DNA from: Inconstantimicrobium porci
GTDB lineage: Bacteria > Bacillota > Clostridia > Clostridiales > Clostridiaceae
Direction of reading: 5' to 3'
DNA: 64,000 bases
Assembly: GCF_009696465.1 (NCBI RefSeq)
Contig: NZ_VULX01000004.1
Span: 62,001-126,000 of the forward strand
The notes under the pieces: generated by a model
Databases searched by the model: none
What the model was told of the DNA's origin: nothing
Seen by the model: the letters and a program-made list of their open reading frames with translations, nothing else
Position numbers and translations under genes: made by a program
Part shown: positions 4,357-44,832 of the stretch, in pieces
Numbering within the stretch: the stretch's first letter is position 1
Layout of the letters: every line of letters starts with the position of its first letter

Positions 4357-4538
4357 AATAGATTTAGAAGAGGTAGAGGCGCATTATTTAATAGTAACTG
4401 TACAGAGGTAAACACAATGAAGTGCAGTGAAAGGAAATGATGCCGAAGTTTATGGATAATGTTTTAAGGCCATATGCTGGACTTGCATAGAATATATGCA
4501 AGGCTGTCACAATATTTTGTGGAGAGCTATCATCTATA
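4357..4538 (+). ncRNA. Lysine riboswitch (L-box)
   Basis: The P1 stem pairs ATAGAT near 4358 with ATCTAT near 4531. Between them are the conserved L-box blocks in order: AGAGGCGC, GTAACTGTACAGAGG, GTGAAAGGAAATGATGCCGAAG, the GGCTGTCAC segment and the closing GGAGAGCTATC. The arrangement and spacing are characteristic of the five-helix lysine aptamer. It sits upstream of an NhaC-type transporter and is followed by an intrinsic terminator, consistent with shutting off transport when lysine is abundant. Confidence 0.93.
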
Positions 4539-4570
4539 GGAAATTTTTCATTAAGTTATCTTAATGGATT

Positions 4571-4604
4571 AAGAACTCTGGGTGTTATCTCAGGGTTCTT
4601 TTTT
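4571..4604 (+). terminator. Expression-platform terminator of the lysine riboswitch
   Basis: Stem AGAACTCTGG / CTCAGGGTTCT with GTGTTAT between, followed by TTTTTT. It lies between the lysine aptamer and the transporter start, as expected for a transcriptional off-switch. Confidence 0.85.
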
Positions 4605-4649
4605 GCCTCTTTTATTATCACTCTTAAGTATTTTAAAGGAGGACTTTTT

Positions 4650-6362
4650 ATGAAAAACAGAAAAAAAATATTTTTACTATCATTTACTTTGTTTTTACTA
4701 TCATTTTGTACTATAGCACTTGGTGCAGAGAAGGATGCAGCACAGGTTAACGCAGTTAAGTTTGGACTGCTTACACTGCTTCCACCACTAATAGCAATAG
4801 TACTTGCATTTGTAACAAAAAACGTTGTTATTTCATTGTTTCTGGGAATACTTGTAGGATGTGTAATTCTGCAGTTTAATGGGACAAGCAATATATTTTA
4901 TGCACTTATCCATGGATTCCTGGATATGACTCAAAGGATGCTTAATTCTATAGCAGATCCTTGGAATGCAGGTATAGTACTTCAGGTACTTGCAATAGGA
5001 GGACTTATCAGTCTTGTAAGTAAAATGGGTGGAGCTAAGGCGGTAGCAGAAGCTTTATCAAAGAAAGCCAAGACTCCAAAGAGTGCCCAGATGATATCAT
5101 GGCTTTTAGGAATTCTTGTTTTCTTCGATGATTATGCAAACTCGTTAATCGTTGGACCTATAATGAGACCAATTGCTGATAAGCTTAAGGTTTCAAGAGA
5201 AAAATTAGCATTTGTTATTGATGCAACAGCAGCACCTATTGCAGGACTTGCAATAATATCAACTTGGATAGGGCTTGAAGTTGGACTTATAAAAGATGGA
5301 TTCAGCCAGCAACTTGGACAGGATGTAAATGGATTTGGGATATTCCTAAATACAATTCCTTATAGATTCTATAATATTTTAATCCTTGCTTTTGTTGTAA
5401 TTACAGCATTATCTTCAAGAGAATTTGGACCTATGCTTAAAGCGGAGAGAGCTACCAGAGTTAGAAGTAAAAAGGCTGATAAAGAAAATGTAGTTATTGA
5501 TACTGATCTTGAACCTGTAGAAGGAATAAAATTAAGTGTCTGGAATGCAATAATTCCAATAGGAACTCTTATAATAGCAGCACTTGTGGGATTTTATTAC
5601 AGTGGATATAAAACAATATTAGCTGGTAAAGATGCTTCGCTTATAGCACTTGTAAATAATTCACCAGCAAGTTTTGCAGCTATTAGGGAATGTTTTGGAC
5701 AGGCAGATGCTTCAATAGTATTATTCCAGGCAGCACTTATAGCAACAATAGTAGCAATTATAATGGCATTCTTTAAAAAGATTTTCTCAGTATCAAAAGC
5801 TGTAGAAGTATGGATAGAAGGTATGAAACCACTTGTAATTACAGGAGTTATTCTTATTCTTGCATGGAGCTTAAGCTCAGTAATAAAAGAACTTGGAACT
5901 GCAAAATTCCTTGTTTCAATATTATCTGATTCAGTTCCACAATTCCTTCTTCCATCAATAATATTTATATTTGGTTCAGTAATATCATTTGCAACAGGAA
6001 CAGCTTATGGAACAATGGGAATACTTATGCCGCTTGCTATTCCATTAGCCTTTGCAATATCACCTGATATGGGATATGTAACAGTAAGTATAAGTGCTGT
6101 ACTTACAGGAGCTATATTTGGGGATCACTGCTCACCAATATCTGATACAACAATACTTTCATCAATGGGAGCAGGATGCCATCATATAGATCACGTTAAA
6201 ACTCAGATATGGTATGCACTTTTCGTTGCAGCTGTAACAATAATCTTTGGTTATATACCAGCAGGACTAGGGCTTCCTATATATATAATACTTCCAGTAG
6301 CTATTGCTGCACTTACTGGACTTACTTATCTTATAGGAAAACCAGTAGAAGGTAACGAATAG
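4650..6362 (+). CDS. lysW: NhaC-family Na+/H+ antiporter-like transporter, probable lysine transporter LysW
   Basis: 570-aa polytopic membrane protein of the NhaC family, with a signal-like first helix and about a dozen hydrophobic segments. The conserved core FFDDYANSLIVGPIMRPIAD and the later GTAYGTMGILMPLAIPLA and FGDHCSPISDTTILSSMGAG segments are typical of the family. Upstream is a lysine riboswitch with terminator. Comparative genomics has assigned L-box-controlled NhaC paralogues in Gram-positives as lysine transporters (LysW), so substrate assignment rests on regulation, not on the protein itself. AAAGGAGG precedes the ATG. Confidence 0.85.
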   Translation: MKNRKKIFLLSFTLFLLSFCTIALGAEKDAAQVNAVKFGLLTLLPPLIAIVLAFVTKNVVISLFLGILVGCVILQFNGTSNIFYALIHGFLDMTQRMLNSIADPWNAGIVLQVLAIGGLISLVSKMGGAKAVAEALSKKAKTPKSAQMISWLLGILVFFDDYANSLIVGPIMRPIADKLKVSREKLAFVIDATAAPIAGLAIISTWIGLEVGLIKDGFSQQLGQDVNGFGIFLNTIPYRFYNILILAFVVITALSSREFGPMLKAERATRVRSKKADKENVVIDTDLEPVEGIKLSVWNAIIPIGTLIIAALVGFYYSGYKTILAGKDASLIALVNNSPASFAAIRECFGQADASIVLFQAALIATIVAIIMAFFKKIFSVSKAVEVWIEGMKPLVITGVILILAWSLSSVIKELGTAKFLVSILSDSVPQFLLPSIIFIFGSVISFATGTAYGTMGILMPLAIPLAFAISPDMGYVTVSISAVLTGAIFGDHCSPISDTTILSSMGAGCHHIDHVKTQIWYALFVAAVTIIFGYIPAGLGLPIYIILPVAIAALTGLTYLIGKPVEGNE

Positions 6363-6440: not shown

Positions 6441-6463
6441 ATTATAAATTTTATATTTTAAAT

Positions 6464-6492
6464 AAAAGGTATGGGAGAATCCTATACCTTTT
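6464..6492. terminator. Intrinsic terminator after lysW
   Basis: AAAAGGTATGGGA / TCCTATACCTTTT forms a strong stem with a T-rich tail on the + strand. Confidence 0.75.
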
Positions 6493-6568
6493 GGTATTAT
6501 TGAGATTTTTTTGACTTTTTTTAGAAAAAGGGTTATTATAATATTAATTTAATTTTAGGAGGTATATT

Positions 6569-6619
6569 ATGACATCACTTAATATGGTTAAAGTAATTTT
6601 AGTCCATCATCATTGTTAG
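6569..6619 (+). CDS. Histidine-rich leader peptide upstream of hisS
   Basis: A 16-codon ORF with a perfect AGGAGG ribosome binding site 6 bases before its ATG encodes MTSLNMVKVILVHHHC, with three consecutive His codons at 6605-6613 just before the stop. It is followed by alternative hairpins and a terminator before hisS, the classical arrangement of a ribosome-mediated attenuator sensing charged tRNA-His. No T-box motif is present in this leader, unlike the metG, argS and asnS leaders of the same window. Confidence 0.75.
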   Translation: MTSLNMVKVILVHHHC

Positions 6620-6743
6620 AGACTTGGTCTGATTAAAGTCAGATACAAGTCTATTTCCGCAGGCTTGTATCTCTGACAATGGTTTTTAAGTGTATTCATA
6701 ATTTTTGTGAAGCCATGCAGGATAGAAGCTGCATGGTTTTTTT
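6611..6743 (+). promoter_or_regulatory. Candidate attenuator of hisS with mutually exclusive hairpins and terminator
   Basis: Segment 6621-6632 can pair with 6639-6651 (GACTTG.../...CAAGTC), while 6641-6649 (AGATACAAG) pairs perfectly with 6664-6672 (CTTGTATCT), so these two hairpins exclude each other. Segment 6611-6622, overlapping the His codons, can pair with 6670-6681. A terminator (AGCCATGCAG / CTGCATGGTT plus T7) occupies 6711-6743. How the upstream switch reaches the terminator is not evident from inspection. Confidence 0.65.
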
Positions 6744-6782
6744 GTATTCAAAAATTCTAAATTATTAAGGAGTGTATGAAAA

Positions 6783-8069
6783 ATGAAAAATAATATAATA
6801 AAACCAAGTATTTTAGCAGGATTTATGGAGTTACTTCCCAAGAATCAGAAAAAATTTGATGATATAGTAAGTAAGATTAAAGCAGTTTATGAGGAGAATG
6901 GCTGCGAAGCTATTGATACACCTATAATAGAAAAATCTGAAGTGCTGCTTGCAAAGTCTGGCGGAGAAACTGAAAAGCAGGTATACAGCTTTGAAAAAGG
7001 AAAGAATAAGATGGCATTAAGATTTGACCTAACTGTGCCTTTTGCCAGATATACAGCTCAGCACTTTGATGAATTAGCTTTTCCTTTCAGAAGATACCAG
7101 ATAGGAAAAGTTTATAGAGGAGAAAGAAATCAGAGAGGAAGATATAGAGAGTTTTATCAGTGTGATGTTGACGTAATAGGAAAGAACAGTTTAAGTATCA
7201 ATAATGATGCCTGGGTTATTAATCTTGCTGATAGAGCATTTAAAGCTATAGGCCTTACATCATATAAATTCCAGATAAGCAATAGAAAAATCTTAAAAGG
7301 AATTTTAAGCGAACTTGAAATTGAGAGAGAAAATGATGTAATGACACTTATAGATAAGTATGACAAGATTGGAGAAAAGTGTTTTAATGATGAACTTACA
7401 AAAGTTATTGGTTCAGAACAGGCTGAGATAATAAATAACATTATTTCTATAGAAGGCAGCAGTGATGAAACAATAAAAAGACTTTCTGAATTTAAGTTTT
7501 CCAATGAAACATTTATTGAAGGAATAAAAGAACTGGAAAAAGTAACTAATATACTGTCATGTCTTGGAGTAAGCAGTGATAAATTTACAATAAATTTAAA
7601 GATAATTAGAGGTCTTGATTACTATACAGGTACTGTATTTGAAACATTCCTTACTGGTAATGAGAGTTATGGTTCAGTATGTTCAGGTGGAAGATATGAT
7701 AACCTTGCAGAAAAGTATACAAATAATATTCTTCCTGGTGTTGGAATGTCTATAGGATTAACAAGATTGTTCTTTGTGTTAAGTGAAATTGGATTCCTTG
7801 ATACATATAAAGCAAACAATAGTCTTGATTATCTTATTCTACCACTTGGAGATACAATGGATTATTGCATAGAAGTGATGAATGATCTTCAGAAAAAGAA
7901 TTACGTAGCAACTGTTTATTTTGAAGAAAGTACATTAAAAAAGATGATGATTTATGCAAATAAGATACAAGCAGAAAATGTAATTATTATAGGCGAAGAT
8001 GAAGTTAAAAATAAAAGACTAAAATCTAAAAATATGAAAACAGGTGAAGAAACTTATATTAATTTATAA
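6783..8069 (+). CDS. hisS: Histidyl-tRNA synthetase
   Basis: Class II synthetase attaching histidine to tRNA-His. The 428-aa protein has motif 2 (YRGERNQRGRYREFYQCDVD), the HisRS-specific signature (RGLDYYTGTVFE, near residue 277), motif 3 (GVGMSIGLTRLFF) and a C-terminal anticodon-binding domain (LDYLILPLG to the end). The complete signature and anticodon domain argue against the HisZ regulatory paralogue. It is a stand-alone gene behind a His-codon leader peptide and attenuator-like region. Clostridia often keep hisS beside aspS, so this could be a second hisS copy. Confidence 0.9.
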   Translation: MKNNIIKPSILAGFMELLPKNQKKFDDIVSKIKAVYEENGCEAIDTPIIEKSEVLLAKSGGETEKQVYSFEKGKNKMALRFDLTVPFARYTAQHFDELAFPFRRYQIGKVYRGERNQRGRYREFYQCDVDVIGKNSLSINNDAWVINLADRAFKAIGLTSYKFQISNRKILKGILSELEIERENDVMTLIDKYDKIGEKCFNDELTKVIGSEQAEIINNIISIEGSSDETIKRLSEFKFSNETFIEGIKELEKVTNILSCLGVSSDKFTINLKIIRGLDYYTGTVFETFLTGNESYGSVCSGGRYDNLAEKYTNNILPGVGMSIGLTRLFFVLSEIGFLDTYKANNSLDYLILPLGDTMDYCIEVMNDLQKKNYVATVYFEESTLKKMMIYANKIQAENVIIIGEDEVKNKRLKSKNMKTGEETYINL

Positions 8070-8559: not shown

Positions 8560-10155
8560 GTGGTAAGAACAGAACCCTCCTTATTTCAATGAGGAGATGA
8601 ATGTTCTTCTTTTTTGCATAAAAAGACTATATGTAACCATATAACACCCTTAAATACTTGCTTTTTATATTAAATAAATGTATACTATATGTATGAAGAG
8701 TAAATTAACTAAAGCGAGAACTTGTGTCTATAATATTAACTATCATATTGTTTGGACAGTTAAGTATAGACGTAAAATTTTAATTGGAGATGTAGAACAA
8801 TATTTAAAAGATGAACTACAAAAAATTGCTGAAGAAAAAGATTTTATAATTCATGCAATGGAATGTGATAAAGACCATATTCATTTATTTGTATCAGCTC
8901 ATCCTAAGATAGCACCTTCTTACATTGTTAAGATGTGTAAAGGTATCACAGGAAGAAAATTGTTTCTACAATTCCCTGATATAAGTAAAAAATTATGGAA
9001 AAATACTTTGTGGAATAGTTCTTTTTATATTGAAACTATTGGTTCAACTAATGAAGAAAATATAAAAAGATATATTGAAAATCAAAAAATGAAAGGAGAA
9101 TAATGTTTTGTTATTGACGAAAAAGATTATATATAAACCAAATGAATTAGAACTTAATATTTTAAACTCAATGGCTTTTTCGTCAGCAAAGCTATGGAAT
9201 ATAGGCAATTATGAAAAGAGAAATTATAAAACATTAGGTTTCTCTGAATTTCCTAATTGGTATGACCAAAAGAAAAGACTAAAAGATAATTTTTGGTATA
9301 AGAATTTACCATCTCAAACATCACAAGATGTATTAAATAAATTGCAAAAAGCTTGGAAAAGTTTTTTTGAGTTAAATAAATCAAAAGGAATTAAAAATCC
9401 AAAACCACCAAGATTTAAAGGTAAAAAAGATTTATTTAATTTCACTTATCTTAATAATGGATTTAAAAAAGTATCTGATGATACTATTAAATTTTCTATT
9501 TCTAAACAACAAAAAGAATATTTAAAGGATAAATATGACTTTGATTCTAAATATTTAAGTTTGAAAATAAAATACTTTTCAACAATCAAAGGAAATATTA
9601 AAACTATTGAATTTAAACCACTTAAAAATAAAAAATATCAAATTAATGTTGTTTATGAAATAGAAGATGTAGCCCTTAAAGATGATAATGGAAATTATTT
9701 ATCTATTGATATTGGTATTTCAAATCTTTTCACTTGCTATGATAATAAAGGTAAAAGCTTTATTGCAAGTGGCTCTAAATACTTAGAAATTAGTCATTAT
9801 TTTAATAAGAAGATAAGTCATCTTCAAGAAATAGCGAATAAACAGCAAATAGCAAGTGGTAAAAAGTATGTAACTACTACTAAAAGGATAAATAATTTAT
9901 ATAAAAAGAAACAATTACAACTTAATCATTATTATCATTGTGTAACTAAAGAAGTTGTTAAATATTGTGTTACTAATAATATAAATAAAGTTGTAATAGG
10001 TGATATAAAAGGAATTAGAGATAATGCTAAATTAGGAAGTATAAATAATCAAAAGCTACATTTTTTGCCTTATGATAGACTTTATGATTTACTTGCATAT
10101 AAATTATTAAGAGAAGGAATAGAACTAATAAAAATAAAAGAAAGTTATAGTTCAC
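8560..10155 (+). mobile_element. IS200/IS605-type element copy 1, truncated at its right end
   Basis: Almost base-identical to copy 2 over about 1.59 kb, including the left-end near-perfect palindrome CTCCTTATTTCAATGAGGAG (8577-8596). Identity stops inside tnpB just after TAGTTCAC (ends 10155), the same octamer that forms the right end of the complete copy at 13966, suggesting a cryptic cleavage site was used. Visible differences from copy 2 are a few bases in the leader (for example around 8590-8675) and one silent change in tnpB. Confidence 0.85.
8678..9103 (+). CDS. tnpA: IS200/IS605-family Y1 transposase TnpA (copy 1)
   Basis: 141-aa HUH single-strand transposase. The HUH motif is DHIHLF (His67, His69), and the nucleophile is Tyr132 in KRYIENQ near the C-terminus, so the active site is intact. 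It recognises subterminal hairpins and cuts single-stranded DNA at the element ends. No clear ribosome binding site precedes either the ATG at 8678 or the in-frame ATG at 8693. Protein identical to the second copy at 12145. It ends 4 bp before tnpB, whose ribosome binding site AAAGGAG lies in its last codons. Confidence 0.93.
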   Translation: MYTICMKSKLTKARTCVYNINYHIVWTVKYRRKILIGDVEQYLKDELQKIAEEKDFIIHAMECDKDHIHLFVSAHPKIAPSYIVKMCKGITGRKLFLQFPDISKKLWKNTLWNSSFYIETIGSTNEENIKRYIENQKMKGE

Positions 10156-10175
10156 ATAGTATCCATGTTGAATGA
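9108..10175 (+). pseudogene. tnpB: TnpB RNA-guided nuclease, truncated copy
   Basis: TTG start as in copy 2. The 355-aa frame is identical to copy 2 up to ESYSS and then ends in six foreign residues (HSIHVE). It retains the RuvC-I Asp (SIDIGIS) and the Glu of KESYSS, but has lost the last 71 residues including the RuvC-III Asp, so it should be inactive as a nuclease. No guide-RNA region or right end follows it. Confidence 0.9.
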
Positions 10176-15328: not shown

Positions 15329-15379
15329 ATGATTTGACACTATGTTTAGTGTATAATATAATTATGTTAAAATTTATAA

Positions 15380-15680
15380 GAAGCTATGAAGAGAAGAGTA
15401 GCATTTTGGAATGTTAAAAGAGAGTTGGGCAAGCTGAAAACCAATAACAGGAAGATTTGTGAACATGGTCTTGGAGCATATTTTTCGAATGTAATTTATA
15501 GCGTAAATGCTATGTTTTAGAGAAGTACGGAAGCAGCCGTTATACTGCAGGGTGATGATGTATTAAAGTCGCCTGATATAAGGTATCGTAAATTATTTTT
15601 TAAGATATGAAATAGAGTGGTACAGCGTATAAAAAAGGCGCCTCTATATGAGAATAACTCATATGGGGGCGCTTTCTTAA
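15380..15680 (+). ncRNA. T-box leader specific for methionine, upstream of metG
   Basis: Stem I begins AGAGAAGAGTAGC; the specifier is ATG at 15465-15467 (GAAC-ATG-GTCTTGGAG). The T-box/antiterminator sequence AGAGTGGTACAGCG is at 15613-15626 (one change from the GGTACCGCG consensus), followed by terminator GCGCCTCTATATGAG / CTCATATGGGGGCGC. Uncharged tRNA-Met would allow read-through into metG. Confidence 0.93.
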
Positions 15681-36555: not shown

Positions 36556-36798
36556 AAATAAGTAAATTCAATGAAGAGAAGAGTATTTATTTAGATTCCT
36601 TTTAGCGAGCAGGAACAGAGTGTAAGTCCTGTAGGATATAAATAAAGAAAAGAATCTTGGAGAAGATATTAAGCCTTACAGGTGAGATAAGCCGTTTGCT
36701 GCGTTAAAGCATTGAGTGAACTAAATTTTAGTTAATTTGAGTGGTACCGCGGAATAATACATTCGTCTCTTATATAAAGAGAAGGATGTTTTTTTTTG
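36556..36798 (+). ncRNA. T-box leader specific for arginine, upstream of argS
   Basis: Stem I starts GAAGAGAAGAGTA; specifier AGA (Arg) at 36651-36653 in the same context as the Met leader (AGA-ATCTTGGAG). T-box sequence GTGGTACCGCGG at 36741-36752, then terminator CATTCGTCTCTT / AAGAGAAGGATG plus T9. Confidence 0.94.
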
Positions 36799-44524: not shown

Positions 44525-44775
44525 AAAAAAACCTATCATCCACACTGGGACGAAAGGTTAAAATTCCGCGGTACCACCCAAATTGCCAAATAGGCCTCTT
44601 TAATAATACGCTCAACTGTAACGGGTTGAAATCGTCTAGGCCTACTGTCTCAAAAAACCGAGAGTTCGGATAGAAACTCAGAGACGTTCTTCAATAAAGA
44701 AATAGTATGGATCCTTGCACCACCGTCCACTCGCTAAAACTATAATCTATATTTACTCTTCTCATCATTGTCATA
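44525..44775 (-). ncRNA. T-box leader specific for asparagine, upstream of asnS
   Basis: Minus strand: stem I from GAGAAGAGTAAATATAG; specifier AAC (Asn) at 44688-44686 (GAAG-AAC-GTCTCTGAG). T-box GGGTGGTACCGCGG at 44579-44566. Terminator AACCTTTCGTCCC.../...GGATGATAGGTTTTTT at 44560-44525. Confidence 0.94.
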
Positions 44776-44832
44776 AATTTTTATTAACAATTAAGATTTT
44801 ACATTATAAGTTTATTATTTGCAATGATTATA

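Follow-up and report, generated by a model that had tools for sequence, protein, structure and literature searches.

The hisS2 gene of Inconstantimicrobium porci, which encodes a second histidyl-tRNA synthetase (HisRS), is very probably controlled by a ribosome-mediated transcription attenuator, in which translation of a short His-codon leader would sense charged tRNA-His and set the expression of an inducible enzyme. This reading draws on comparative sequence analysis and on models of RNA folding; the leader ORF, its His codons, a fixed geometry, both alternative structures and the linkage to hisS2 are each supported by comparison among relatives. Such a switch would mean that in the clostridia, rich in T-boxes as they are, translation of a His-codon leader can govern the gene of a synthetase, in dozens of species, through an RNA family that is absent from Rfam and whose covariation-supported alternative folds are testable by mutation. 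Positions refer to the window, i.e. the whole stretch of DNA that was analysed (64 kb).

The leader ORF and its signals

The sequence-only reading had placed a 16-codon ORF with a perfect AGGAGG and three tandem His codons at position 6569, and direct inspection of the sequence bears out both the elements and their coordinates. The run of His codons does precede the stop, as had been described, with the added detail that a single Cys codon (TGT) intervenes before the TAG. The leader is thus a short ORF with its own Shine-Dalgarno (SD) sequence and tandem codons for the amino acid of the regulated gene. Its surroundings are laid out as follows.

6463-6493, plus strand: intrinsic-terminator-like hairpin 3' of the upstream transporter gene, setting the leader apart from that gene
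6511-6539, plus strand: promoter-like site TTGACT-17-TATTAT, sigma-70-like, about 30 nt 5' of the leader ATG
6557-6562, plus strand: perfect SD (AGGAGG) of the leader ORF, with a 6-nt spacer to the ATG
6569-6619, plus strand: leader peptide ORF MTSLNMVKVILVHHHC*, ATG at 6569, 16 codons, stop TAG at 6617-6619
6605-6613, plus strand: run of three His control codons, all CAT, read from the sequence
6783-8069, plus strand: hisS2, second HisRS, 428 aa (TIGR00442, 393.8 bits against a cut-off of 286.75)

The promoter-like site agrees with the consensus at 10 of 12 positions, and four sites of this quality occur in the region against 2.4 expected. That a His-rich ORF should have arisen by chance beside a constitutive terminator is scarcely credible, since only 4 of 2000 shuffles of the 450-nt upstream region produced a short ORF that has an SD and three or more His within four codons, and the conservation across the family described below contradicts it. 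Across both strands of the 64 kb, two SD-preceded His-rich short ORFs were found, namely the leader and MMHSHHSSYK, the latter with a weaker SD.

The neighbourhood holds other features of interest. At 4366-6362, a lysine riboswitch (121.6 bits) lies 5' of a gene for a 570-aa NhaC/Tet(35)-type transporter, likely a lysine transporter. At 8678-10175, 3' of hisS2 and of an XRE-type regulator, ORFs of 141 and 355 aa were read as an IS200/IS605-type TnpA/TnpB pair.

Alternative folds and the proposed switch

From the leader start onward the RNA is much more stable than shuffled sequence: 6569-6750 has a minimum free energy of -60.5 kcal/mol, whereas 200 shuffles averaged -35.6 +/- 3.7 (z -6.75) and none reached that stability. 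The mutually exclusive hairpins and terminator that had been proposed from the letters alone are consistent with this fold, with its alternatives and with an intrinsic terminator lying between the leader ORF and hisS2.

6576-6582, plus strand: P0 5' strand, inside the ORF; partner 6686-6692 in the no-ribosome (OFF) fold
6609-6622, plus strand: P1 5' strand, running from the last His codons through the Cys codon and the stop into the bases that follow; partner 6670-6683 in the OFF fold
6620-6632, plus strand: arm A, AGACTTG-G-TCTGA; partner arm B
6639-6652, plus strand: arm B, TCAGATACAAGTCT; partner either A or C
6659-6673, plus strand: arm C, GCAGGCTTGTATCTC; partner B (OFF) or the terminator 5' arm
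6679-6686, plus strand: antiterminator 5' strand ATGGTTTT of the window sequence; potential partner GAAGCCAT at 6709-6716
6709-6743, plus strand: intrinsic terminator with arm D at 6709-6720, arm E at 6729-6740 and a U-tract at 6737-6743

When His-tRNA is sufficient, the ribosome would complete the 16-codon leader and depart. In the emptied leader, the stretch from the His codons through the fourth codon to the stop would pair with 6670-6683 to form P1 and the early ORF with 6686-6692 to form P0, and with P1, P0 and B:C in place the terminator would fold, leaving the gene OFF. When His-tRNA is scarce, the ribosome would stall at codons 13-15 and block P1. Arm A, which a ribosome at the stop codon covers, can pair with arm B as long as the ribosome is held at the start of the His run. 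Arm C, thereby released, would pair through its GCAGGCTT with AAGCCATGC at 6710-6718 and, together with 6679-6686, occupy the terminator 5' arm, so that transcription would continue and HisS2 would be produced (ON). The antiterminator strand 6679-6686, whose family equivalent was tested comparatively, is the very stretch sequestered by P1 and P0 in the OFF fold, and a ribosome on the His codons would therefore set it free. From this arrangement we infer leader translation, stalling, antitermination and a response to histidine, with HisS2 as a reserve enzyme.

Comparative and thermodynamic results agree that the antiterminator and sequestering helices are mutually exclusive and placed so that a ribosome on the control codons would set the choice. 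Equilibrium terminator probabilities for the window leader were computed twice, by folding only the RNA outside the ribosome, whose footprint was taken to reach A-site +12 nt. For a ribosome at His13, at His14, from His15 to the stop, and for none, the first computation gave 0.44, 0.65, 0.83 and 0.96, and the second 0.44, 0.68, 0.87 and 0.93. When family members were folded with full terminators, 12 of 45 had a probability over 0.1 lower with the ribosome on the first His than with it at the stop, and a reversal of that size was seen in 0 of 45. Most members still favour the terminator at equilibrium with a stalled ribosome (median 0.93), and the switch must therefore be partly kinetic.

An alternative is that the leader is mainly driven by ribosome release, such that any ribosome on the leader antiterminates, only empty RNA terminates, and the choice between A:B and B:C matters little. 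In keeping with that picture, the terminator 5' arm pairs with bases upstream of it at a mean of 0.55 with the ribosome on the first His, 0.47 at the stop and 0.16 with none. Ribosome release as the main driver is less readily squared with the three-way complementarity of A, B and C, which is kept in nearly all sequences, or with the climb in terminator probability from the first His to the stop once full terminators are folded, and we judge it a possible but improbable account. Pairing of the terminator 5' arm was set aside as a sole read-out because of its weak contrast between stall and stop, full-terminator folding being clearer; a cruder measure gave 0.23 vs 0.99 for the window, with a weaker trend in the family.

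Conservation of the leader in Clostridiaceae

The sequence-only reading had proposed a search for conserved HHH leaders before hisS in relatives, and such leaders are present; a loss of the ORF and its His codons among close relatives, which would have counted against the proposal, was not what the search showed. Copies precede hisS2 in Clostridium nigeriense and C. neonatale (both HHHY), C. thermobutyricum (HHCH), C. sartagoforme and C. tertium (both HHHC), C. hydrogenum (HHH), a Cellulosilyticum MAG (HHHHS) and another genome of Inconstantimicrobium (HHHH). A covariance model built from nine such leaders (R1) was run against 208 genomes of the family; 72 gave matches, and in about 50 the match was strong. 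The strong copies read HHH(X)*, lie nearly all directly 5' of a hisS2 orthologue, and hold the leader stop codon at a fixed position of the model or at most one codon away. Within the I. porci genome the one strong match is the window leader; a second (L090, E 0.013) was judged spurious, having no leader ORF and lying where a repetitive coding region ends.

Across 55 leaders, His occupies the first, second and third control codons in 55, 51 and 54 cases, respectively, with CAT and CAC both in use, and every leader has an SD with at least four of six matches. Fifty-two of these leaders are located 5' of hisS2, some copies of which are partial or broken. Of the remaining three, L098 precedes a degraded hisS2, L097 (HHHT) a gene for the binding protein of an amino-acid ABC transporter, and L140 (FHHHR) hisZ. 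The HHHT leader (L097 1501-1643; G016:C10:1533002-1533144) is a second HHH leader, placed before the substrate-binding protein of the transporter, in a genome that also carries a hisS2 leader.

Linkage between enzyme and leader weakens with distance. Among HisS2 orthologues of at least 58% identity, about 43 of 50 have the leader and none was found in seven. R1 misses most hisS2 genes of 48-53% identity, and an HHH leader was present in 4 of 40 further upstream regions. A T-box occurred in 1 of 20 distant hisS2 upstream regions scanned, and other regions held only terminator remnants or nothing. That distant orthologues often lack the leader, and in one case have a T-box, indicates that here and there the sensing system was replaced or disappeared. 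Decay was also seen at L141, L132, L169 and L013, where the RNA or the terminator alone is left and the ORF or hisS2 is broken or gone.

With matches in so large a part of the family, the earlier description of ribosome-mediated attenuation of a synthetase as unusual in Clostridium is too strong, and for Firmicutes His leaders before hisS and his genes had already been published (PMC2965389, PMC9413887).

Covariation of the OFF and ON structures

Structure tests were carried out on an alignment of 38 leaders (A4). For the OFF fold, scored as P0, P1, B:C and the terminator together, 92.5% of cells are standard pairs against 31-44% in slid versions, and 82 double-sided compensatory changes were counted against 29.4 +/- 6.0 in shuffles that retain phylogenetic relatedness. 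Compensatory changes affect 8 of the 11 pairs of P0. In P1, the two pairs formed by the fourth codon are distributed as UA18/CG13/AU2 and AU26/GC6/CG1, while the residue encoded after HHH may be Tyr, Cys, Arg, Gln, Ser, Thr or a further His, or may be absent. That bases covary where the residue varies indicates that this codon is maintained for its pairing in the RNA rather than for the amino acid it encodes.

The ON fold, consisting of A:B and an antiterminator hairpin, has 95.5% standard pairs vs 36-45% slid. The pairing GGCUU:AAGCC was considered as the sole antiterminator and rejected, as 13 of the 38 leaders have a C-A mismatch in it; the family antiterminator is instead a hairpin of GGU-GAUAAAUUA with UAAUUUAUU-ACC, and the exact antiterminator therefore varies between members. 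At the base pair through which the terminator arm joins the antiterminator strand, the family hairpin shows UG16/UA13/CG6, and CA does not occur.

T-boxes in the window and the absence of one at hisS2

The genes metG, argS and asnS had been assigned T-boxes, and all three assignments hold, with the identities of the genes confirmed. Those before argS (36562-36773) and asnS (44543-44777, minus strand) exceed the Rfam threshold, and that before metG (15377-15648) falls just under it (90.8 bits against 93, E 1e-20) and is missed by a default Rfam scan. With such neighbours, the possibility arises that hisS2 is likewise controlled by a T-box, or by some other RNA with tRNA or a small molecule as its direct ligand, and that the short ORF plays no part. 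The T-box covariance model (RF00230), which recovers the T-boxes of the window, gives no match to the hisS2 leader; no Rfam family, riboswitches included, reaches threshold there; and the His_leader model (RF00514) gives no match either. The RF04312 trpB motif was discarded at 30 bits against a gathering cut-off of 59, its weak match spanning the hairpin-terminator layout. A directly binding RNA would also leave unaccounted for the retention of ORF, SD, start, stop and His codons in 55 leaders and the pairing of the switch strand with the very codons of the leader, and we consider it very improbable. Given the conserved ORF and His codons, the covarying structure and the lack of an Rfam T-box, the proposal that the gene is controlled by ribosome-mediated His attenuation stands.

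hisS2 and the housekeeping hisS

The sequence-only reading had called the regulated gene hisS. It does encode a HisRS, whose score lies under every HisZ cut-off, but it is not the housekeeping copy. A 424-aa HisRS, about 34% identical to HisS2, is encoded elsewhere in the genome and followed by aspS, in a relA-dtd-hisS-aspS locus (G000:C1:12500-20600; L258, L004) with a hemZ-like ORF also upstream; the relA, dtd and hemZ-like labels were read by eye from translations. In the 7 kb upstream of this housekeeping hisS, no Rfam family, the T-box included, reaches threshold. The genome also encodes a HisZ-like protein of 394 aa. HisS2 is present in 94 of 208 family genomes, and its nearest non-clostridial relatives belong to Bacteroidota, Saccharibacteria and other groups, which suggests horizontal acquisition.

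The low identity to the housekeeping enzyme, the resemblance to Bacteroidota and Saccharibacteria enzymes and the patchy distribution would each suit a resistance or stress paralogue that replaces an inhibited housekeeping HisRS, with the same sensor and uncharged tRNA-His still as its trigger. The leaders before the ABC binding protein (L097) and hisZ (L140) fit amino-acid supply better, and we hold the resistance role to be a minority prospect, doubtful though worth weighing. As a proposed starvation-inducible spare synthetase, HisS2 raises the question of why such an enzyme is kept.

Related attenuators elsewhere in Clostridia

In a class-wide sample, R1 also finds HHHH and HHHHH leaders before hisZ-like genes in other Clostridia families (L251, L252, L253, L256); these are apparently relatives of the known his-operon attenuators (PMC9413887). 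At L250 and L255, also in other Clostridia families, an HHH leader of the same layout precedes a small stand-alone protein that resembles the anticodon-binding domain of class II synthetases (PF03129, E 8e-6).

Weak matches to R1 and R2 revealed a second class of attenuators, with leaders such as MSREINFESIKVNMAYYLSYYR, MKNLSSITMQVVFNSQFR and MKKINLTRALKLNIFYFSYYS. These leaders are rich in Phe and Tyr, ending ...YYLSYYR, ...VVFNSQFR, ...FFYFSFFR or ...IFYFSYYS, and precede genes for transporters of the Na+:neurotransmitter-symporter family, for BPD_transp_2 permeases and for BrnQ-type transporters (L224, L225, L226, L228, L229, L233, L237, L241, L245 and others). None matches an Rfam family at threshold, and the class is apparently undescribed and a more novel lead than the His leader. 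A model built from 16 Phe/Tyr leaders (R3) matches 69 of 208 family genomes, some through their His leaders, and its only match in the I. porci genome is the window His leader (E 6e-7). The two classes accordingly look related. It is enticing to speculate that a single ancestral clostridial ribosome-sensing scaffold was re-coded for His or for Phe/Tyr near the leader stop and placed before a synthetase paralogue, his biosynthesis genes and several transporters, a proposal to which we give an even chance; if true, it would constitute a modular ribosome-based counterpart of the T-box. The Phe/Tyr leaders also suggest that leader-peptide control is commoner in Clostridia than a T-box-centred view implies.

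Comparison with known systems

Leader-peptide attenuation is classical in Proteobacteria, and in the pheST system of E. coli the leader peptide that controls a synthetase has many residues of the amino acid which that enzyme charges. The E. coli hisL leader (RF00514) shares with the hisS2 leader a ribosome stalled on His codons, alternative folds and an intrinsic terminator, whereas the hisS2 leader has only three His codons and its target is a synthetase paralogue rather than a biosynthesis operon. The pheST and cysS leaders likewise place a synthetase under a leader peptide of its own amino acid, yet they are proteobacterial and their RNAs are different. The cysteine leader in question, the uORFC-8-2 motif, precedes cysS in Rhodobacterales (PMC8632094).

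Among Firmicutes, Rli60 of Listeria (ilv-leu) is a ribosome-mediated attenuator demonstrated by start-codon and RBS mutations (PMC5864092); it differs from the hisS2 leader in sensing branched-chain amino acids, in its 13-residue leader and in its RNA. Attenuators of his operons, with 3-5 tandem His codons and both terminator and antiterminator hairpins, were predicted in Peptostreptococcaceae/Lutispora, Erysipelotrichales and the Bacillus cereus group, with C. difficile relatives included (Ashniev et al. 2022, PMC9413887). They resemble the hisS2 leader in these elements but govern his biosynthesis operons, and the paper makes no mention of hisS. His leader peptides were also predicted before hisS* and hisZ in the B. 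cereus group (Naville and Gautheret 2010, PMC2965389), and these too combine a short His-codon ORF and a terminator before a Firmicute hisS paralogue, with ribosome-mediated attenuation as the predicted mechanism. They belong to Bacilli, and the likeness to the clostridial leader is drawn at the level of description. Literature searches for clostridial hisS leaders or Phe/Tyr leaders returned none beyond the papers cited, and they turned up no experimental work on the hisS2 locus of I. porci. The clostridial hisS2 branch of His leaders appears to be undescribed in the literature searched, and the principle of its switch is already known from other bacteria.
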